This document shows, piece by piece, positions 7,093-37,971 of a stretch of DNA of 64,000 nucleotides. The notes below the pieces were generated by a model. It worked only from the letters and a program-made list of their open reading frames with translations. It had not been told where the DNA came from and made no database searches. How positions within the stretch are numbered: position 1 is the stretch's first letter; every line of letters begins with the position of its first letter. This DNA is from Intestinibaculum porci (GTDB lineage Bacteria; Bacillota_I; Bacilli_A; Erysipelotrichales; Coprobacillaceae), in NCBI RefSeq assembly GCF_003925875.1, contig NZ_AP019309.1, positions 1,922,001-1,986,000 on the forward strand. The letters run 5' to 3'. The translations under genes and the position numbers were made by a program.

Positions 7093-7366
7093 ATGAGTAT
7101 GATTCGGAAGATTGAGATTGACGGAAAGCAGGTGCCATTCAAGGCATTTGCCGCCATTCCGCGTATTTATCGCATCAAGTTCCATCGAGATATCTATAAG
7201 GATCTCGATGCGCTTGGAAAAGCTGTCGGAAACGGGGATGAGGGTTCCTCCCACCTCGATATGTTCTCTCTTGAGATGTTTGAGAATATCGCCTACATCA
7301 TGGCAAAGCATGCAGATCTTACCATCCCGGACAGCCCGGAGGAATGGCTTGATGAGTTTAGCACCT
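7093..7366 (+). pseudogene. Phage tail assembly chaperone remnant
   Basis: About 90 residues resembling tail assembly chaperones of Firmicutes siphophages (IRKIEIDGK, FKAFAAIPRIYRIKFHRDIY, then MFSLEMFENIAYIMAKHAD and PEEWLDEF). The homologous part stops at about 7366, where the sequence changes into the tail of a serine recombinase gene in another frame. No other tail genes are nearby, so this is debris. Base composition is richer in G+C than the IS element to its left. Confidence 0.6.
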
Positions 7367-7766
7367 TCTCACCGAGCGGGACTATTTCCTTAAAGCCTTA
7401 CAGCAGAACATCGCCAAGGCTGTGGTCAACGCTGACACACTCTCACCGGACGGCATTCAGGCACGGCTTGAGGAACTGCAAAAGGAGCTCATCAAGAAGG
7501 CAAACAATAAACAGGACTATGATGCCATAGCCGATGAGATTTTCCGGCTCCGCGACCAGAAGGAACAATCCGAGCTCGACAGCCACCGCCGGGAAGAAGT
7601 CATGAACCGAATCAAGGAGCTGCAGGACTTCATCGCCGGTCAGGAAACCGACATCACAAAGTTCGATGAGGCTCTGGTCAAAAAGCTCATCGAGAAAATC
7701 TCCGTCTTCGCCGACCACTTCACCGTGGAATTCAAGTCCGGCATCACAATTGATATCGAAGCATAA
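7362..7766 (+). pseudogene. Large serine recombinase, C-terminal fragment
   Basis: The reading frame entering at about 7362 (LLTERDYFLKALQQNIAKAVV) and ending at 7766 has the long charged coiled coil typical of the C-terminal part of large serine recombinases (FRLRDQKEQSELD, then LVKKLIEKISVFADHF). The catalytic N-terminal domain and zinc-ribbon are missing. It is joined to the phage chaperone remnant, which shows a deletion fusion. It may be the leftover integrase of the element that brought the sirtuin operon. Confidence 0.65.
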
Positions 7767-7770
7767 AACA

Positions 7771-7808
7771 AGGCTCCCTTACTACCGATGATGGCAGTGT
7801 GGGAGCCT
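7771..7808. terminator. Terminator between recombinase remnant and sirtuin operon
   Basis: AGGCTCCC (7771-7778) pairs with GGGAGCCT (7801-7808) and is followed by a T-rich run on the plus strand. It lies between converging genes and probably serves both. Confidence 0.7.
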
Positions 7809-7832
7809 GATTTTTCTTTTAAATCCCTGTTA

Positions 7833-8822
7833 TTATTTTATTTTCGCAAACACATCACCAATATCCCCATCGATGCAAATGCTCCTGTTCGCAATTTCGC
7901 CCGGACAAAACGCCTCGCCATAATTGATACAAGCATACACTGACTTTTCATTTTCCAGTGTCATTTGCCAGAACGGATACTTCACAATGACGGGTGTATT
8001 GGCTCCCACGCCAAGCTCCAGATAAAGCACATGAAGGCTCTCATGTCTGCGCAGGAAATCCGCATATGCCGCAGACGCTCTATGCCACCCTCCATCTTCG
8101 ACAAAGGAATCGTCAGCACGAAGGTTCATGGTAACATCCGATCCGTCATCCGGGCATTTCGGGATGAGGCTTGTCGGAATCCTCATGGTTATATTGCCAT
8201 CTTTTGGCACCTGAAATACACCAGCTTCGTCCTTCACAAAACCCTGCGACTCCATCGCTTTCATGACCCACTCCTCATTATCATAGGTCTTTTGCAGTGA
8301 CGGATTCACGCTCTGGAATAGTCCGTAGTCTCCCTGCGTATAGAAAAGACGCTTTTTATCAAATCCCGCTCTCTGGAATTGGTGATCCACATTGGTGGTA
8401 ATCACAAAATAGTCCTTATCTTTTACAAGATCGTGCAGTTCTTTATAAACAGGTTTAGGAGCATCGATATAGCGATTGTAGTAGATATGCCTTGCCCACC
8501 ATGCCCAGCGCGTCTCATCATCCGGGAACGGGTAGAAACCACCGGAATACATATCTCGGATACCATACTTTTTCGCAAAATCATAAAAATATGTTTCAAA
8601 ACGCTCGCCACTGTATGTCAGCCCTGCGGAAGTGGAAATTCCGGCACCCGCTCCGATCACTATAGCATCTGCTGCTTCGATCTCTTTCTTTAATCTGGCG
8701 ATTCGTTCCTCCTCAGAGCCTGTTTCGAATGACATATTTCTGCTGAAATACCGCACAGCACCGAGTCCCTTCTGAATGCTTTCCTGATAGCCGTTAGGCA
8801 TTTCATCGTATAAGTTCTTCAT
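7833..8822 (-). CDS. Class-M (macrodomain-linked) sirtuin, SirTM-like, 329 aa
   Basis: Sir2-family NAD+-dependent protein ADP-ribosyltransferase. The NAD-binding motif GAGAGISTSAGL is at residues 57-68 and TTNVDHQFQRAG at 142-153. Where ordinary sirtuins have the catalytic His of HG, this protein has Gln163 (YTQGDYG), as reported for the class-M sirtuins that modify rather than deacetylate proteins. The four zinc-binding cysteines are not visible; only PKCPDDG remains. The start at 8822 is preferred over the ATG at 8852 because MKNLYDEMPN follows GAGGACA and overlaps the macrodomain gene by 20 nt. It is the last gene of the operon. GcvH-L and LplA2, the usual partners, are absent here. Confidence 0.85.
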   Translation of the reverse strand: MKNLYDEMPNGYQESIQKGLGAVRYFSRNMSFETGSEEERIARLKKEIEAADAIVIGAGAGISTSAGLTYSGERFETYFYDFAKKYGIRDMYSGGFYPFPDDETRWAWWARHIYYNRYIDAPKPVYKELHDLVKDKDYFVITTNVDHQFQRAGFDKKRLFYTQGDYGLFQSVNPSLQKTYDNEEWVMKAMESQGFVKDEAGVFQVPKDGNITMRIPTSLIPKCPDDGSDVTMNLRADDSFVEDGGWHRASAAYADFLRRHESLHVLYLELGVGANTPVIVKYPFWQMTLENEKSVYACINYGEAFCPGEIANRSICIDGDIGDVFAKIK

Positions 8823-9609
8823 AGTATTTTTTGTCCTCGTCCTTAAAAACATTAAAGATCACCCTTTCCATAGCACCCGGATGTTGTGAGAGCCAGCTGT
8901 CTACGGCGCTGACGGCAATCTGAGCTGCCCGCTTGTTCGGAAAATGAAATACGCCTGTAGAAATACAGCAGAATGCCACGCTTCTCAAATTATTAACAAG
9001 ACACATATCCAAGGTATTCAGGTAACAGTCTGTCAGTTCCTTCTCCAGTTCCGGCGTCAGCTTGTATTGCACAATCGGGCCTACGATATGAATTACCTTT
9101 TTCGCAGGAAGATTATAGGCGTCCGTCAGCATTGGAACAGCAGTCGGCTGCTCATAATCTTTGCCGTATTTGATCCTCAGCTGATTCATCTGCCTGCTGC
9201 ACTCTGCTCGAAGCTGGACTCCGGCAAAAGTGTGAATGCAGTTGTCAATGCAGGTGTGCATCGGGACAAAGCAGCCCAACATCTGGGAGTTGGCGGCGTT
9301 CACGATGGTGTCAACGGCCAGGCGGGTGATGTCGCCCTGCCAGATCGACATGCCATTCCGAATCATGGGAATCTCCGAAAGCGTGACAATGCCGTTTTCG
9401 CTGATACGCTCCCGTAGGTATTCGTCCTGTACGGCCAGTACCGAATCGTCCAGCTTCTTCGGCATACGAATGTTCATAAGGGAACGGAGGATTCTTAGCT
9501 TGCCCTCCGTATCCGCAGGCGTCTGTAAATCCTTATGTTGAACAGAATCAGCCTTGAACGCTTCGACCAATGTGTCAAGCCGCTGCTCCTGTGTCATTTT
9601 CTCATTCAT
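8803..9609 (-). CDS. Zn-macrodomain protein ADP-ribose hydrolase, 268 aa
   Basis: Removes ADP-ribose from proteins, so it reverses the sirtuin encoded next to it. The macrodomain starts near residue 85. NAANSQMLGCF at 104-114 is the ADP-ribose loop, and Cys113, His118 and Cys120 form the C-x4-H-x-C zinc site of Zn-macrodomains. AFCCISTGVFHFP is the second phosphate loop. The start at 9609 has AAGAAGGTAACAGC upstream; an in-frame ATG at 9633 would overlap the preceding gene and lacks an RBS. The overlap with the sirtuin gene suggests translational coupling. Confidence 0.9.
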   Translation of the reverse strand: MNEKMTQEQRLDTLVEAFKADSVQHKDLQTPADTEGKLRILRSLMNIRMPKKLDDSVLAVQDEYLRERISENGIVTLSEIPMIRNGMSIWQGDITRLAVDTIVNAANSQMLGCFVPMHTCIDNCIHTFAGVQLRAECSRQMNQLRIKYGKDYEQPTAVPMLTDAYNLPAKKVIHIVGPIVQYKLTPELEKELTDCYLNTLDMCLVNNLRSVAFCCISTGVFHFPNKRAAQIAVSAVDSWLSQHPGAMERVIFNVFKDEDKKYYEELIR

Positions 9610-9613
9610 GCTG

Positions 9614-10234
9614 TTACCTTCTTTCCACCGCATCTACATGACAAGCCGTCATATAGTTACCACAATGCAAACAGTGTTCCTGTTCAATCACAAACGGCAT
9701 TTCGTCCTGAATGATACAGTTTTGCGGACAAACCGCTACACAGCTTCCGCAGCCGATACATTTGTCTGTGATGAAATATCCCTCTGCCTTTTTCACCACT
9801 CCTCCAAATGTAAAAGAAGCACGCTCTATCGGTTTCTTTGAAAGATCGAACCACTCACCGCTGCCCTCATAAATCTGGAACACCGTCAGAGCCTGCATAG
9901 ACTCCTCTGTGGGATATATCTTGCGCATATACGGATTTTTCTCAAACAGTTCTGGAATCTTATCATATCCAAGCTCCCGAACCTTTCCACGGATAGACAC
10001 AGCCACGCTGCTCATGGTATCCTCACCCTTCATTGCAGTCAGGGCAAGAAACTCTCGTTTCTTCAACCTGTCATAAAAGCCTTTGCCCTTTGCTGTGAGG
10101 AAATACAAACTCTTTTCATCACTGTCCATCATATCGATTGCTGCCGTCACCGGAAGGCCTTCGTCATCAACGGTGGCTACAATCGTTCGATGTATTTCAT
10201 TTGCGATATAGTCAAGATATTCTTTTGTTTCCAT
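9614..10234 (-). CDS. Pyridoxamine-5'-phosphate oxidase-like flavin domain fused to a ferredoxin domain, 206 aa
   Basis: Residues 1-130 match the FMN-binding split-barrel of PNPOx-like proteins (IVATVDDEGLPVTAAIDMMD; LYFLTAKGKGFYDRLKKR). Residues 145-200 are a ferredoxin domain with CIGCGSCVAVCPQNC at 149-163 and CLHCGNYMTAC at 178-188. Tyr184 stands where the third cysteine of the second cluster motif is expected, so one [4Fe-4S] cluster is well supported and the other is uncertain. It is the first structural gene after Rrf2, 4 nt from the macrodomain start, with RBS AAGGAGG. Electron carrier or redox sensor, substrate unknown. Confidence 0.82.
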   Translation of the reverse strand: METKEYLDYIANEIHRTIVATVDDEGLPVTAAIDMMDSDEKSLYFLTAKGKGFYDRLKKREFLALTAMKGEDTMSSVAVSIRGKVRELGYDKIPELFEKNPYMRKIYPTEESMQALTVFQIYEGSGEWFDLSKKPIERASFTFGGVVKKAEGYFITDKCIGCGSCVAVCPQNCIIQDEMPFVIEQEHCLHCGNYMTACHVDAVERR

Positions 10235-10251
10235 GTCAAATGCCTCCTTAG

Positions 10252-10285
10252 AAAAGGACTCCGAAGCAGTCTGCTCCGGAGTCCC
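10252..10285 (-). terminator. Attenuator-like hairpin between rrf2 and the sirtuin operon
   Basis: GGACTCCG...CGGAGTCC forms a 14-bp stem with one mismatch (10256-10284), followed on the minus strand by TTTTCT and then directly by the RBS of the gene starting at 10234. No separate promoter fits in the 57-nt gap, so the downstream genes must be read through this hairpin. Confidence 0.65.
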
Positions 10286-10291
10286 ATTTTG

Positions 10292-10732
10292 TCAGGCTTC
10301 TTTTGCGAGAATATCCTGCATTCCCGTCCTTAAATCCGCTATCGTGTATTTTCTCATTTCATCCTCCATAGCGGTTTGGATGCCTTTCAATTTGTCATCC
10401 AAAAGGGCGTGGATATTTTTACCTACAGGACACTGTGTACTCGGATTCTCGTGGAAATGAAACAGTCCTTCATCATTTACACAGTCAACCGCCTTATAAA
10501 CATCGTAAAAAGTGATTTCATCCAGTTTTTTAGCAAGCGTTATACCGCTTTTACCCTGACTGATGTCGATAATCCCCGCTTCCTTGAGATTGCCCATAAC
10601 ATTCCGGACAATGACAGGATTAGCGCCTACGCTGCCCGCCAGAAAATTGCTCGTCACCTTTTCGTTGTCTTTGAAATAATCGATAGCGGTAATGATATGT
10701 ACAGCTATCGTAAATCTGCTTGTAATCTGCAT
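10292..10732 (-). CDS. Rrf2 family transcriptional regulator, 146 aa
   Basis: Winged-helix Rrf2 protein (MQITSRFTIAVHIITAI start; helix-turn-helix about residues 25-55 with PVIVRNVMGNLKEAG; wing QGKSGITLA). It lacks the three-cysteine iron-sulfur motif of IscR/NsrR. Only Cys83 and Cys101 are seen, the latter in STQCPVGKN, as in YwnA/CymR-like members. The 23-bp palindrome at its own promoter and at the neighbouring promoter (11525-11547) is its likely operator. First gene of the sirtuin operon. Confidence 0.88.
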   Translation of the reverse strand: MQITSRFTIAVHIITAIDYFKDNEKVTSNFLAGSVGANPVIVRNVMGNLKEAGIIDISQGKSGITLAKKLDEITFYDVYKAVDCVNDEGLFHFHENPSTQCPVGKNIHALLDDKLKGIQTAMEDEMRKYTIADLRTGMQDILAKEA

Positions 10733-10799
10733 TGCCTCTTCTCCACTCCGTTCCGGTTCACACTGAACATGCGTCCACTGGACGCATAGTGCCCTCCTG

Positions 10800-10848
10800 C
10801 TTGTAATATAACACTTTACAAGAAGCCTGTCAATGCAGATATTACAAG
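10800..10848 (-). promoter_or_regulatory. Promoter and Rrf2 operator of the sirtuin operon
   Basis: On the minus strand TTGACA (10828-10833), 17 bp, TATATT (10805-10810). The palindrome CTTGTAA-N9-TTACAAG (10800-10822) overlaps the -10 box. A further half site ATTACAAG is at 10841-10848 just upstream of the -35. The same arrangement recurs at 11525-11594. Confidence 0.8.
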
Positions 10849-10858
10849 CTGTCGTAAA

Positions 10859-11491
10859 TTATTCTCTCACTACACTGATACGCTGCTGGATGTGGTCACC
10901 CTTTTCGATCTCATCTACCATAGCGATGGCATAATCCGCATAGCTGATAATGCTCTCGCCCTTGCTGTTCAGTGTAAGCTCCTCGCCAGCAAGGATATAC
11001 TTTCCGCTGCGCTCACCGTCTGCCTGAAAGTCTCCAGCAGGGCTGATGAATGTCCACTTCACGTCATTTCTCTCACGCAGCTTGGCAAGCTCCTCGCCCT
11101 GTGCCTTTGCGAGCGGGAGGAACATAGCCGGGAAGTCTGCACCATCACTGACAACAGCCGTATGCTCCGGATTTACGAAGAGGCTGCCTGCACCACCAAC
11201 GATCAGAAGACGGGTGTCCGTTCCTGCAAGGATGTCGCATAGATGCTGGGAAGTCTTCACATGACCGTCCAACTTATCCTCTTCCCATGCGCCAAAGCCG
11301 TCCACCACTGCATCAAAGCCAGCCAGATCTTCCTTCGTAAGATCCATGATGTCCTTCTGCACATAATCGGAAGCTGCCGTCTTGTTCTCTGCTCCGCGAC
11401 CGAATGCCTTAACCTCGAACCCTCTGTCCAATGCTTCCTTGACAACCTTCTGAGCTACGCGTCCGTTTGCTGCTACTACTGCAATCTTCAT
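10859..11491 (-). CDS. NAD(P)-binding oxidoreductase, atypical SDR/NmrA-like (YwnB-type), 210 aa
   Basis: Rossmann-fold protein with MKIAVVAANGRVAQKVV at the N-terminus (glycine motif in altered form), FDAVVDGFG and LLIVGGAGSLF strands, and an NmrA-like body. No YxxxK catalytic pair is obvious, as in NAD(P)H-binding family members such as B. subtilis YwnB, which is likewise beside an Rrf2 gene (YwnA). The physiological substrate is unknown. RBS AAGGAGG. It has its own promoter with the shared Rrf2 operator. Confidence 0.8.
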   Translation of the reverse strand: MKIAVVAANGRVAQKVVKEALDRGFEVKAFGRGAENKTAASDYVQKDIMDLTKEDLAGFDAVVDGFGAWEEDKLDGHVKTSQHLCDILAGTDTRLLIVGGAGSLFVNPEHTAVVSDGADFPAMFLPLAKAQGEELAKLRERNDVKWTFISPAGDFQADGERSGKYILAGEELTLNSKGESIISYADYAIAMVDEIEKGDHIQQRISVVRE

Positions 11492-11524
11492 GATAAAATC
11501 CTCCTTTTGAATTCTGATTATTAT

Positions 11525-11594
11525 CTTGTAACCTTTTTGATTACAAGCAGATTATATAGGACAGCAACGCACTTGTCAATAGTTTTATTACAAG
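11525..11594 (-). promoter_or_regulatory. Promoter and Rrf2 operator of the NAD(P)-binding oxidoreductase
   Basis: TTGACA (11574-11579), 17 bp, TATAAT (11551-11556) on the minus strand. CTTGTAA-N9-TTACAAG lies at 11525-11547 over the transcription start region, and half site ATTACAAG is at 11587-11594. Spacing and arms match the site at 10800-10822 exactly. Confidence 0.82.
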
Positions 11595-11600
11595 TTTTTC

Positions 11601-11636
11601 AAAAAAATTTCCGGACGCTTTTTGTGCATCCGGAAT
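11601..11636 (-). terminator. Terminator downstream of rlmD
   Basis: TCCGGA-based hairpin (TTCCGGACGC pairing with GCATCCGGAA) followed on the minus strand by seven T. It ends transcripts coming from rlmD before the oxidoreductase promoter. Confidence 0.75.
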
Positions 11637-11649
11637 TTATATTTTATCC

Positions 11650-11730
11650 TGACATCTATCTCACAGCCACAACTCCCCGACATCTAACTCGGCAACTCAA
11701 CTATGTGACATCTATCGTGGCAACTCAACT
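11650..11730. repeat. Three direct repeats, 28-bp period
   Basis: GACATCTA begins at 11651, 11679 and 11707, exactly 28 bp apart, with CAACTC following in each unit (GGCAACTCAACT in the last two). Regularly spaced repeats of this kind mark the ends of IS21-like and similar transposons. No transposase is nearby. The rest of 11637-11842 holds no gene I can support; a short open frame on the minus strand (11765-11843) runs on from the end of rlmD. Confidence 0.5.
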
Positions 11731-11842
11731 CTCACACTTTTTGAGCCAGATTGCCCTTGGATAAGTTACCGAGAAGCGTTTTGTCTGTCCGATGCCGATT
11801 GCCCGATTGTCCGAAAACCGCAGTATTACTGGGCTTTCGCGG

Positions 11843-13201
11843 CTATTTTCCTTCGACTCTTGACATCAATACTACCGTCTCGACGTGATTAGTCTGGGGG
11901 AACATGTCTACTGGAGTGACCTCTTCTACCTGATAGCCATGCTGCTGTAAGATATCAATATCACGAGCCTGGGTTGAGACATTACAGCTGATATAAACGA
12001 TCCGATCTGGAGATAAGGTCACTAACTGGGATAAGAATAATTCTGAACAGCCTTTTCTTGGTGGGTCAACCATCACAACATCAATATGTTTCCCTTCTTT
12101 TGCACATTTAACCATGTAATCACCGGCATCATCACAGGTGAAATAGGCATTGGTAATGCCATTGGCAAGGGCATTCTTTTTAGCATCTTCAATAGCCTGC
12201 GGGACAACTTCGACGCCATAAACTTCTTTCACCTGTGAAGCGAGGGATAAAGCGATGGTCCCAATCCCGCAGTAAGCATCAATAACGATATCTTCTTTTT
12301 GGAAATGGGCATATGCAATTGCTTTTGCATAAAGGACTTCAACCTGTCGTGGATTGATCTGATAAAATGATTTTAAAGAAATAGTGTAGGTATTACCTAA
12401 TAAGGTATCATGAATAACCCCATCACCATATAAAATGATTTCCTGATCTCCTAAAATGACATTATCATGACGGGTATTAATATTTTGAATGACTGTTTTG
12501 ATCTGCGGGAATTCTTCTACTAAGATGCGGACAATGTTTTTAAGATGCGGGATCTTTTTTGTGTATGTGATAAAGACAAGCATACCTTCATCAGTATGCG
12601 TGCCATAACGCGTTAATACATGTTTGATCATCCCCTGCTTTTTTTCTTTATCATAAGGAGTAATGGAATAACGTTCAAAAAGTTCTTTAACCCGCTTTGT
12701 AACGGTATTAGAGAATTCATTTTGAATCATGCAGAAATCATGATCGATGATTTCGTTCGTCCGCGCTCTATAAAAGCCGCTCACTAAGCGTCCTTTATTC
12801 ATGCCAAAGGGAACCTGCACCTTATTACGATAATGATAAGGCGGCAGATCCATCAGACAGTCATTAACCGGGGCATCACAATGACCAATTTTATGCAAGG
12901 TTTCTTTCACCCGATTGGTTTTAAAAGCTTGTTGTCCTTCCTGAGACATATGCATGAGACTGCAGCCGCCGCATTGTTTATAAACGGGGCAAATTGGTTC
13001 TTCTCTCTCTGGTGAAGTTTTAATGAGACGCACAATCCGGCCGACGCAGTAATTCTTAAGCACTTTAATAATTTCAATTTCGGCTTCTTCTCCGACAATC
13101 AGATTTTTCACAAATACTGCTATTCCATCATGATGGACAATGCCTAAGGTATCATGGGTATAATCCGTGCATGTCGCTATAATATGATCTTTCTTTTTCA
13201 T
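11843..13201 (-). CDS. rlmD: 23S rRNA (uracil-5-)-methyltransferase, RlmD/RumA family, 452 aa
   Basis: SAM-dependent enzyme that makes 5-methyluridine in 23S rRNA (in Gram-positives often both U747 and U1939). The TRAM domain is at residues 5-60. Iron-sulfur cysteines are in CPVYKQCGGC plus an upstream or downstream Cys. The SAM site is VIDAYCGIGTIAL, followed by DPPRKGC, catalytic Cys in YISCNVS, and the family C-terminus NHVETVVLM. RBS AAAGGAG. The gene is complete, but its 3' end borders the accessory block and matches the att-like sequences at 4613, 6833 and 6981. Confidence 0.95.
   Translation of the reverse strand: MKKKDHIIATCTDYTHDTLGIVHHDGIAVFVKNLIVGEEAEIEIIKVLKNYCVGRIVRLIKTSPEREEPICPVYKQCGGCSLMHMSQEGQQAFKTNRVKETLHKIGHCDAPVNDCLMDLPPYHYRNKVQVPFGMNKGRLVSGFYRARTNEIIDHDFCMIQNEFSNTVTKRVKELFERYSITPYDKEKKQGMIKHVLTRYGTHTDEGMLVFITYTKKIPHLKNIVRILVEEFPQIKTVIQNINTRHDNVILGDQEIILYGDGVIHDTLLGNTYTISLKSFYQINPRQVEVLYAKAIAYAHFQKEDIVIDAYCGIGTIALSLASQVKEVYGVEVVPQAIEDAKKNALANGITNAYFTCDDAGDYMVKCAKEGKHIDVVMVDPPRKGCSELFLSQLVTLSPDRIVYISCNVSTQARDIDILQQHGYQVEEVTPVDMFPQTNHVETVVLMSRVEGK
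11872..11890. other. rlmD 3'-end core shared with att-like sites
   Basis: CTACCGTCTCGACGTGATT encodes the HVETVV segment of RlmD on the minus strand. It aligns with 4613-4629 and 6981-6996. This is the probable chromosomal attachment core of the integrative element to the left (inference). Confidence 0.45.
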
Positions 13202-34419: not shown

Positions 34420-36000
34420 TCAGGAGAGATCTTCCCCTGAGAATATTTCTTTTACCGTTATTGGATCACCTTCATAAAGTCGTATCATTGCATAGATCTC
34501 ATTTATTCCGTTTTTCCTGCAGGTTTCTATATACGTTTTGGCATCTGCGTAATACTGAGCGTTTTGAATATTTTGGAACTGTCCTGATGATCGCATATGG
34601 CTTTTTACGACTCTAAGTCCGCGTTCTGCGCAATTATTGGTTGTCGGAAGAGTGAAATCATTTACCCAAGCAAAGTAATTATCATAATAATCACGTATAC
34701 GCTTAATTAGCGTCTTCTCGGATCTTCCAAAGTATGCATCATAATCTTTTTTGTTTCTCTTTTCCGCTCGGTTGAGTATATCATTAACTTTTTTGTTAAA
34801 GTTTTCAATAAATTCATCACTAAAGCGAGTCTCTCCCTTGTTTATGGCTTCTTTGCGTTTGTGGATGGTATCGGAAATAAGATCTTTCAGTTCCATAAGC
34901 TCATCATGTTTTGTATCAATAGCGATTTTTTTGAGGTCACGCTGAAGGTGCTGATTGCATTCAAGGTTGCCAAACTTGAATTTAGCGTTATAGTTCACTT
35001 TATTGTGATCATGCATCGTTTTTTGCTCTTCAGTGAGTAGTGTTAGGACTTTGTCTTCTTCAATCCCTTCAAGATCTTTCTTCTCATGAGCCGTATAATA
35101 TGAGAGTGTTTCATCTCCGTAAAAGCGCAGGCAGCCTTTCTTTGTATTAATATTGATAACAGTGTCATCCCAATATACGAGAGTTCTTTGGAGCATTAGA
35201 TTCTTTAAAACTATACGGAACTCAGATAACTTTTTTGATGCAATCATAGGAAGTTTTGCAAGGTAGCCTTCTGACGGACTTATTTCTCCGTTTGTGATCC
35301 CCTCAAAAAAGGTTTTAACCTTGTTAATAGGAACATTGCAGGTATTCATTAGCGATAAGCCAACGGCCTGTACTGCCGTCCCATAGTGACAGGCTGATCT
35401 TTCATTAGGCTTCAGGCCAAGAAAAAATGTAGTCCCGCAGCTTCCGCATTTGTATTGATAGAAAACCTTTTTGAGGTTTATAGGCTTGATGCTAATAGTT
35501 TTCTCATATACAGCTTTAGTTTTGCCGGTGAAAACAAGTTCATGAGAACCACATTTCGGACACTCAGTTGCATCATCTGCCACATATTCAATTTCTTCGT
35601 CAATATCATCAGGAATACCGAGTTCACTTTTAGAATGTCCTGGCTGACCTCCAATTTTTCTGTCAGTAGGCTCTCTGGAATTGATGCTTGAGTTATATTT
35701 TGCTTTTCCTATAGGAGTAGACGCAGTAGGAATACCAACGGTAGTTGAGTCATGATTGCTTATGGCATTAAGATATTCAATCTTGTCTTTCAGTCTGTTA
35801 ATTTCATCATTAAGATTTCTAATCATTTCATCTTTTTCAAGACAAAGCTGCTTTAATTTTGCGATTCTGTTATCCCTGTATTCAAGCTTCTGTTTTTTGG
35901 ATTTCAGTTCTTCATTACAATCGTAAAGTCTTGTTTTAAGGTCACCAATCTTTTTGCATGCTTTATCATATTTTACTGATAGTGTTCCTAAAGAATCCAT
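34420..36000 (-). CDS. IS66 family transposase, complete, 526 aa
   Basis: Full-length copy of the protein cut by the window edge at 1-1347. Coiled coil 10-80, zinc finger around residue 150, DDE core with VYWDDT, CNQHLQRDL, and catalytic Glu in NNCAERGLRVVKSHMRSSG. The short C-terminal extension (YEGDPITVKEIFSG) is a family feature. Probably active, given two indistinguishable copies. Confidence 0.97.
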   Translation of the reverse strand: MDSLGTLSVKYDKACKKIGDLKTRLYDCNEELKSKKQKLEYRDNRIAKLKQLCLEKDEMIRNLNDEINRLKDKIEYLNAISNHDSTTVGIPTASTPIGKAKYNSSINSREPTDRKIGGQPGHSKSELGIPDDIDEEIEYVADDATECPKCGSHELVFTGKTKAVYEKTISIKPINLKKVFYQYKCGSCGTTFFLGLKPNERSACHYGTAVQAVGLSLMNTCNVPINKVKTFFEGITNGEISPSEGYLAKLPMIASKKLSEFRIVLKNLMLQRTLVYWDDTVININTKKGCLRFYGDETLSYYTAHEKKDLEGIEEDKVLTLLTEEQKTMHDHNKVNYNAKFKFGNLECNQHLQRDLKKIAIDTKHDELMELKDLISDTIHKRKEAINKGETRFSDEFIENFNKKVNDILNRAEKRNKKDYDAYFGRSEKTLIKRIRDYYDNYFAWVNDFTLPTTNNCAERGLRVVKSHMRSSGQFQNIQNAQYYADAKTYIETCRKNGINEIYAMIRLYEGDPITVKEIFSGEDLS

Positions 36001-36014
36001 TGATTTACTCCTTG

Positions 36015-36377
36015 TTAATCATCATTATTAAGAATTGATTCAATTCTATTGATCTTGCTGGTAAGCTTTCTATTAGCCGCCTTAAGCTGTTTGATCTCAT
36101 CATCTCTGCTTGCAATAATTTTTTGCATATCCTCAACCATCTTTTTATAGGTTCTTCTGCCGCTTGCTTTTTCTTCATTTTCAGCTGTATTTTTATCAGG
36201 ATTAGGCTTTCTCCCTCGCTTTTTGCTTGAAGGAATAATTTCTCCAGTTTCCTCGTCTACAACGCCAAGGTATTTGCGTTTTGCTCTAGGCTGTTTGAGC
36301 TCAGGATTCCAAACTGAAACAGATTCATAAGCATATTTCTTGCCAGTTTTCTTGTTTGTCACATAAACAATTGCCAT
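36015..36377 (-). CDS. IS66-element accessory protein (120 aa), copy B
   Basis: Same sequence as 1362-1724: beta-rich N-terminal domain like that of IS1634 transposases, KKRGRKPNP basic patch, coiled-coil C-terminus. The stop is 14 bp before the transposase start. Function in transposition inferred from position only. Confidence 0.75.
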   Translation of the reverse strand: MAIVYVTNKKTGKKYAYESVSVWNPELKQPRAKRKYLGVVDEETGEIIPSSKKRGRKPNPDKNTAENEEKASGRRTYKKMVEDMQKIIASRDDEIKQLKAANRKLTSKINRIESILNNDD

Positions 36378-36579
36378 CTTTTCTCACCCCCTTGTTACTA
36401 TATACAGTATATCATATAACTAGCTTAAAATAAATAGTAATTTACATATAATTTAAATTTATTAGAGACTATGTTTGCTGAAATTATCAAGAAAAAGAGA
36501 ATACTTTTTTGGTTGTCAGGAATAAGACACTTGAATTGTTAATACATGACTATAAATCACTTTAAAAGTTATAATAAAA

Positions 36580-36604
36580 GGGTATCCCATATATGGATAT
36601 ACCC
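36580..36604. terminator. Hairpin at right end of IS66 copy B
   Basis: Same GGGTAT/ATACCC hairpin as 1927-1951. Here it lies just downstream of bglA and now serves as its transcription stop. The non-coding stretch 36378-36636 is otherwise the leader of the IS genes. Confidence 0.55.
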
Positions 36605-36636
36605 CTAAATAAAGACATTATTCAATTTTTAATCTT

Positions 36637-37971
36637 TCAGCACTGTGAATAGTAACGTTTTTCACCATTGGAAGCGATCACTTTCTGATACCAGGTGAAA
36701 GATTTCTTTCTATAACGCTTCATATCTTTCAGATCATGATCTTCACGATTGACATAAATGATGCCATAACGTTTAGCCATTTCGCCGTGGCTGCTTAAAA
36801 TATCAATCGGTCCCCACATTAAATAGCCACGACAATCGACGCCATCACTAACCGCCTCCTTGACCGCTTGAATATGTGCACGCATATAGTCAATACGATA
36901 ATCATCATAAACAGTGCCGTTTTCTAAGATATCTTTCGCGCCTAAGCCATTTTCCACCACCATAATTGGTAAACGATAACGATCATAAATATCACGTAAG
37001 CCTAAATATAACCCTGTCGGATCAATCGGCCAGCCCCATTCACTTTCTTTCAGATAAGGGTTCTTACATTCCCCTTCCTGTGCGCTATATGCATGAGAGA
37101 AATAATAGCTTAAGGAAAGCATATCCACAGTATTCTCTTTTAGTAACTGCAGATCCCCTGCTTCCATTTCTGGCAGCTTATCTTCTTTGATCATTTTCTG
37201 GTAAATGTAAGGCAAATATTCACCATGAGTGAACATATAGAGATACTGCTCGGTAATGGCATTATGATCCATCGCCGCTCTCACATCACGAGGATCACAG
37301 GTTTTCGCCTGCACCGGCGCATAGATAATCATTCCTAAAATCTGGGCATCTTTGATCGTATGCACTTTTTTCGCCACTAACGCATGCGCCACAAAGGTAT
37401 TGTGAATGAGCTGATTGACAAAAGTCTGGAAATCAACACCTTCGGGACACTTCGCCCCATAGAGAAATTTCTCATCATTGATAAAGGCAATCCCATTTTG
37501 TTCATTGAAAGAAATCCATTTCTTAACGCGATCGCCATAACGATCAATCATCTTATAAGCATAATTTACAAACATATCGACAACTTTCCGCGAATAAAAA
37601 CCATTGTACTCATCCATTAATACCTGTGGCATTTCAAAATGATAGAGTGAACACATCGGCTCCATCCCATAAGCGATCAGCGCATCAATGAAGCGATCAT
37701 AGTATTCTAAGGCTTCTTCATTGAAATGAATCCCATCGGGAGATACCCGCGACCAGTCAATCGAAAAGCGGTAACAGGTAAAGCCGCATTCTTCAAATAA
37801 GGCAAAGTCTTCTTCATAGCGATGAATTTCATCAATGCCATCTTTAAAGTCACCAAATTCTGGTTGACAAATATTGTCACAAACTGCTCTCACCTTGCCA
37901 TACATCGTGTGGCCGCCTTCACTTTGATGGGCAGTGACAGCCCCGCCCCATAAAAATCCTTCTTTTAACAT
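36637..37971 (-). CDS. bglA: 6-phospho-beta-glucosidase (GH1), last residues from IS66
   Basis: Hydrolyses phosphorylated beta-glucosides after PTS uptake. GH1 fold: FLWGGAVTAHQSEGG at the start, acid/base Glu in SFNEQN, nucleophile Glu in MVVENGLG. Residues after NGEK (RYYSQC) and the stop come from the IS66 end; joining the flanks across the element gives NGEKL and a stop. The change is at the extreme C-terminus, so the enzyme should work. No PTS gene is adjacent. Confidence 0.93.
   Translation of the reverse strand: MLKEGFLWGGAVTAHQSEGGHTMYGKVRAVCDNICQPEFGDFKDGIDEIHRYEEDFALFEECGFTCYRFSIDWSRVSPDGIHFNEEALEYYDRFIDALIAYGMEPMCSLYHFEMPQVLMDEYNGFYSRKVVDMFVNYAYKMIDRYGDRVKKWISFNEQNGIAFINDEKFLYGAKCPEGVDFQTFVNQLIHNTFVAHALVAKKVHTIKDAQILGMIIYAPVQAKTCDPRDVRAAMDHNAITEQYLYMFTHGEYLPYIYQKMIKEDKLPEMEAGDLQLLKENTVDMLSLSYYFSHAYSAQEGECKNPYLKESEWGWPIDPTGLYLGLRDIYDRYRLPIMVVENGLGAKDILENGTVYDDYRIDYMRAHIQAVKEAVSDGVDCRGYLMWGPIDILSSHGEMAKRYGIIYVNREDHDLKDMKRYRKKSFTWYQKVIASNGEKRYYSQC
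36657..36664. repeat. Target site duplication of IS66 copy B, right
   Basis: GTTTTTCA, same as 34209-34216. Confidence 0.9.

Follow-up and report, generated by a model that had tools for sequence, protein, structure and literature searches.

We found that, in a window of 64,000 nucleotides of Intestinibaculum porci (the whole stretch analysed here), the promoters of an rrf2 gene and of the adjacent ywnB gene each carry a pair of dyads, which are probably the operators of a YwnA/SifR-type Rrf2 repressor. This repressor would control rrf2 itself, ywnB and a set of effector genes, encoding a PNPOx-ferredoxin fusion, a zinc-type macrodomain hydrolase and a macrodomain-linked sirtuin (SirTM), and would be released by quinones. 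An earlier note on this DNA had proposed a single regulon joining the oxidoreductase to the sirtuin genes, and this proposal gains support at the sequence level from the sites found in relatives and from core sites at the two other SirTM loci of the genome. All together, the data suggest that one thiol-based sensor switches the regulator, YwnB and the sirtuin/macrodomain genes on together.

The perfect dyads CTTGTAA-N9-TTACAAG are exact at both promoters, as the earlier note had described, and they are the only two copies in the 3,212,924-base genome, where the reversed control pattern has none. The 17-bp spacing of both promoters was also confirmed. Each promoter had further been credited with a half site upstream of the -35 box. 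Indeed, ATTACAAG occupies 10841-10848 and 11587-11594, but neither copy is a lone half site: each forms one arm of a second N9 dyad, the other arm of which contains the -35 hexamer (TTGACAAG or TTGACAGG). Likewise, the two perfect dyads had been considered the same; their arms are identical, whereas their 9-bp spacers differ in sequence. Their positions are also unequal, the perfect dyad (O2) covering the -10 box at rrf2 and beginning just downstream of it at ywnB. The starts of O2 and of the second dyad (O1) are 26 bp apart at rrf2 versus 47 bp at ywnB, the difference of 21 bp corresponding to about two helical turns. The rrf2 leader additionally holds, at window positions 10758-10787, a 19-bp palindrome (ATGCGTCCA-G-TGGACGCAT) overlapping a reading frame of nine codons (MRPVDACSV) that has a ribosome-binding site of its own; the same leader is found in two related loci, L007 and L008.

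Table 1. Cassette genes, promoter elements and core operator sites. Coordinates are window positions, except for core sites, which are genome positions.
Feature	Position	Strand	Basis or remark
SirTM, macrodomain-linked (class M) sirtuin	7833..8852	-	5a3a, E 1.7e-51
Zinc-type macrodomain protein-ADP-ribose hydrolase	8803..9633	-	NF003163 over cutoff; 8rsi and 5kiv relatives
PNPOx-ferredoxin fusion (PNPOx_N + 4Fe-4S ferredoxin)	9614..10234	-	domain matches
Hairpin, 14 bp, then UUUUC, between rrf2 and next gene	10255..10285	-	z -5.3
rrf2, YwnA/SifR-type Rrf2 regulator	10292..10732	-	Rrf2 domain; solved relatives; C101
O2, rrf2 promoter: perfect dyad over -10 box	10800..10822	-	exact match
rrf2 promoter, TTGACA-17-TATATT	10805..10833	-	consensus match 11/12
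O1, rrf2 promoter: second dyad, 2 mismatches, holds -35 TTGACA	10826..10848	-	dyad search
ywnB, NAD(P)H-binding protein	10859..11491	-	NAD_binding_10; homologue of pneumococcal YwnB, PDB 4R01
O2, ywnB promoter: perfect dyad just past -10 box	11525..11547	-	exact match
ywnB promoter, TTGACA-17-TATAAT	11551..11579	-	consensus match 12/12
O1, ywnB promoter: second dyad, 1 mismatch, holds -35 box	11572..11594	-	dyad search
Core site before SirTM-macrodomain pair	506925		~20 bp from start codon; O1 26 bp upstream
Core site before solo PNPOx-ferredoxin gene	1537092		
Core site before second PNPOx-ferredoxin-macrodomain-SirTM operon	1879390		second operator form
Core site, rrf2	1932802		window site
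Core site, ywnB	1933527		window site

Genome-wide, the exact core TGTAA-N9-TTACA occurs at five places, against nine for the reversed control. The number of sites is thus uninformative and the evidence lies in their location: all five precede one gene set, namely rrf2, ywnB, PNPOx-ferredoxin loci and SirTM/macrodomain genes (Table 1). The genome contains three SirTM genes, each in a SirTM/macrodomain pair, and a core site covers all three loci. One of its four PNPOx-ferredoxin genes, at 1590069, has no exact core site nearby. The earlier note had raised the possibility that the motif is frequent in unrelated intergenic regions; across the genome, it is not. A looser search, allowing up to two mismatches, returned 20 places versus 34 for the control, which carries no information, and was discarded as evidence. 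A one-mismatch site at 3018307 was also dropped, as it lies inside a histidine-kinase-like reading frame.

The window Rrf2 protein matched the Rrf2 domain (PF02082) with 100.6 bits, and its best structural relatives were 1ylf (E 1.5e-32) and 1xd7 (YwnA, E 4e-24), YwnA being the nearest solved structure that bears a gene name. Membership of the HypR family was rejected, the protein scoring 47.5 bits against an NCBIfam HypR cutoff of 180. The genome encodes three paralogs of this regulator, and all four proteins retain the sensing cysteine. The closest paralog, at 1554599, is 50% identical and has a nearly identical reading helix (SIGSNPVIIRNLM versus SVGANPVIVRNVM), so more than one protein may use the operators. 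Since three of the five core-site promoters also lie away from the window's rrf2, it is conceivable, if rather doubtful, that the regulon is real but that its operators are occupied in the cell by another Rrf2 protein, with the 1554599 paralog as the first candidate, or by several of them. However, of the four genes only the window's rrf2 is preceded within 300 bp by a core site, at its own promoter, the 1554599 gene having only a one-mismatch core 223 bp upstream, and the operator travels together with the window-type rrf2 in relatives (see below). We thus favour the window Rrf2 protein as the probable repressor.

The ywnB product has as its best solved relative 4R01 (E 6.5e-68), which is pneumococcal YwnB, a quinone reductase according to the available text of PMC9218516; by homology, it is likely a quinone-detoxifying enzyme. 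The sirtuin falls into the SirTM class both by homology to a solved SirTM and by the adjoining Zn-macrodomain gene, and is predicted to be a protein ADP-ribosyltransferase. The effector genes are separated from rrf2 by a 57-bp gap and by a hairpin (Table 1). Hairpins are found at the same place in many relatives, their shape kept and their sequence changed. If this hairpin ended the rrf2 transcript, the window's sirtuin genes would be outside the regulon, a reading favoured by its 14-bp stem followed by uridines and by its recurrence in relatives. We nevertheless regard it as improbable: the minus strand of the gap contains no promoter-like site, so that effector expression would need read-through past the hairpin, a terminator scan did not call the short U-tract a terminator, and macrodomain/SirTM pairs elsewhere have their own operators. 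The hairpin would then be a candidate leaky terminator or attenuator within a regulon that includes the sirtuin genes. As to the sirtuin substrate, GcvH-L is the only known SirTM target in the available text of PMC11490716. PF01597 (GcvH) had no match in the whole I. porci genome, while 13 of 14 genomes gave a match in a control search. Nor do the five annotated genes of the cassette include one for a lipoate ligase. Gene linkage alone makes the PNPOx-ferredoxin protein a candidate SirTM substrate.

We aligned 107 of the 108 extracted Rrf2 sequences, those that were long enough. C101, at the start of helix 5, is invariant in all 107, and C84 is found in 42. The SifR signature HxxPNPxC, present in full in many of these relatives, reads HENPSTQC in the window protein, with H94, P97 and C101 kept and NP replaced by ST. 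The Pfam name of the domain, iron-dependent, would fit a protein that, like NsrR or IscR, senses NO or oxidative stress through an Fe-S cluster. We consider this very unlikely: such Rrf2 proteins use three cysteine ligands, whereas C84 and C101 are the only cysteines of the window protein and only C101 is invariant, which argues against a nitrosative Fe-S sensor, as does the proximity to YwnA.

Conservation of the operators was assessed in 78 related loci gathered by a scan with the Rrf2 protein, from named bacteria and metagenome bins, mainly of gut or rumen; these loci were picked by similarity and are not independent. Upstream regions of 200 bp were searched, 41 for ywnB and 78 for rrf2. 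N9 dyads with at most two mismatches were present in 32/41 ywnB and 37/78 rrf2 regions, while spacers of 5-8 and 10-13 gave at most 1/41 and 2/78 and the reversed control gave 0, showing that the N9 spacing is specific. Sites with at most one mismatch numbered 56 in 650,781 bases, 53 of them inside the ywnB and rrf2 upstream regions. When only the 5-base core was required, with at most one mismatch, the counts rose to 38/41 and 61/78 (reversed control, 3/41 and 2/78), 17 of the 78 rrf2 regions lacking even a one-mismatch core. The paired arrangement is also found in relatives, with a 47-bp dyad pair at 24 ywnB promoters and a 26-bp pair at 8 rrf2 promoters. A constant spacing between the -35 box and the second dyad was rejected as a rule: it fits the 47-bp and 42-bp arrangements but fails for those of 26 and 49 bp. 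Sixteen genomes with the regulator were selected from the loci; 12 of them contained the exact 23-bp dyad, at 14 places, 12 of which are at this locus. In Catonella morbi, two exact sites are remote from the locus, and one of these lies inside a reading frame (L087).

A second operator form, TGTAAC(T)ATTGACATTACA, with the -35 box at the dyad centre, is frequent in relatives of the window's phylum, and in many cases a further dyad follows 42 bp on. Pairs of this form stand between rrf2 and the macrodomain/SirTM genes (L102, L103), before a cupin gene followed by the macrodomain/SirTM pair (L127/L140, L128), and, 113 kb from that genome's rrf2, directly before macrodomain-SirTM (L137). Further genes with second-form sites encode PNPOx-type (L133, L146) and SnoaL-like proteins (L144 by Pfam, L135 by resemblance). 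The regulator (E 1e-20 or better) was found in 24 of 392 genomes of the phylum. The pattern TGTAANNATTGACATTACA, in which the operator is fused with the -35 box, occurs in 13 of the 392, and 12 of these are among the 24 (hypergeometric 1.5e-15, ignoring phylogeny); in the sole pattern-bearing genome without the regulator (G244), the site lies inside a reading frame (L139). SirTM was found in 51/392 genomes. At SirTM loci (32 loci out of 55 matches), an exact core was present in 9/19 from regulator-bearing genomes versus 0/13 from the others (control 0/32, Fisher 0.004). The 9/19 is a lower bound because some positives, among them two of the three from the window genome, have their operon start beyond the sequence covered at the locus; the same may be true of some of the 13 loci from genomes without the regulator.

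The arms of the dyads also covary. In 116 unique exact-core sites, the two base pairs just outside the core were complementary in 79 and 67 sites, compared with 39.7 and 46.1 expected by shuffling, and none of 5000 shuffles reached either value, the statistic being computed without correction for shared ancestry. Covariation of the outer arms is a prediction of a two-fold symmetric dimer site; the spacer positions of the same 116 sites show no excess complementarity. That the dyads arose by chance in AT-rich promoters, as could be argued from core matches no commoner than the control, is barely credible given the location of all five sites at promoters of one gene set, the N9 specificity and the arm covariation.

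The cassette, at 7422-11890 of the window, looks horizontally acquired. Its G+C content is 0.45-0.49 versus about 0.40 in its surroundings, and loci of other families match the region at 90-96% DNA identity, L008 at 90% over 4.2 kb. Homology to L007, L008 and L011 starts at the 3' end of a gene resembling 23S rRNA methyltransferases (11843-11890), the upstream part of which differs among these loci; on the opposite side lies the C-terminal remnant of a recombinase (7422-7766). The cassette thus looks like the cargo of an integrative element; we take the methyltransferase gene to be rum and the insertion site to be, presumably, a rum site. A reading frame matching phage family phrog_709 (7093-7530) adjoins the recombinase remnant. 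In L021, identity to the window proteins is 93-97% for PNPOx-ferredoxin, the macrodomain protein and SirTM but only 70% for Rrf2, which points to exchange of regulator and effectors as modules; upstream, in place of ywnB, this locus has a SnoaL-like gene preceded by an operator pair of its own. Elsewhere in the window, a 2,004-bp perfect direct repeat (1-2004 and 34654-36657) overlaps an rve-type transposase gene.

We propose that the reduced Rrf2 dimer would bind both dyads of a promoter, O1 over the -35 box and O2 over the -10 box or the transcription start, and would block RNA polymerase. The repressor would thereby also silence its own gene. An electrophile, most likely a quinone, would modify Cys101 and release the repressor from DNA, inducing ywnB and the rrf2-PNPOx/ferredoxin-macrodomain-SirTM transcript, on which the leaky hairpin may hold effector levels below those of the regulator. 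The predicted regulon would take in the other SirTM/macrodomain loci of the genome and the solo PNPOx-ferredoxin gene.

According to the available text of PMC11490716, it is unknown which targets SirTM/Zn-macrodomain systems have outside the GcvH-L operon and what physiological role they play. For such systems, the present analysis suggests which regulator may control them and through which operator sequence, which compounds may induce them (quinones or related electrophiles) and which protein may be their substrate. In the genome studied here, which has no detectable GcvH, all three SirTM/macrodomain pairs have the operator. A broader reading, which we offer tentatively, is that gut anaerobes place reversible protein ADP-ribosylation under the command of a quinone/electrophile sensor that works through a thiol. 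SirTM/Zn-macrodomain pairs that lie outside the GcvH-L operon might then serve as the output of a YwnA/SifR-type regulon and have as substrate, instead of GcvH, a redox protein belonging to that regulon, with PNPOx-ferredoxin as the candidate, and the unit might spread between families as cargo of an integrative element at the presumed rum site.

The closest known system is SifR of Streptococcus pneumoniae, as far as the available text of PMC9218516 describes it. The published SifR/HypR operator is TGTAA-N9-TTACA, and SifR Cys102, the equivalent of the window's C101, reacts with quinones, upon which the protein leaves DNA. The two systems share a single-cysteine Rrf2 repressor, this operator and ywnB as a target. 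The SifR regulon comprises catE, ywnB, yhdA, fre and piu, and the same text mentions neither sirtuin nor macrodomain, whereas the window's predicted targets also include SirTM, the Zn-macrodomain and PNPOx-ferredoxin. Unlike SifR, the window's rrf2 lies beside ywnB with an operator at its own promoter, and two dyads are present per promoter. In the same source, the catechol-induced ywnAB of Bacillus subtilis likewise has a YwnA-type regulator beside ywnB, but sirtuin/macrodomain genes are not described with it. HypR of Staphylococcus aureus has the same core operator; HypR and SaiR of Bacillus anthracis are dithiol sensors, unlike the single-cysteine window protein.

On the sirtuin side, the extended SirTM operon of S. 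aureus and S. pyogenes (PMC4518038, PMC11490716) also places SirTM next to a Zn-type macrodomain hydrolase, but with GcvH-L and LplA where the window cassette has PNPOx-ferredoxin; the available texts of both sources make no mention of Rrf2. Our literature search pairing YwnB with sirtuin found no paper, and in the one pairing sirtuin, macrodomain and Rrf2, Rrf2 appeared only in a cited title. A 2026 preprint (PMC13404960) notes a SifR-like Rrf2 in Lachnospiraceae, sirtuins being unmentioned in its available text. The operator, the regulator type and the ywnB target are thus already known from SifR. What is new with respect to the literature found is the extension of this operator to all SirTM/macrodomain loci of a gut bacterium with no detectable GcvH, and the presence of two promoter-fused dyads per promoter.
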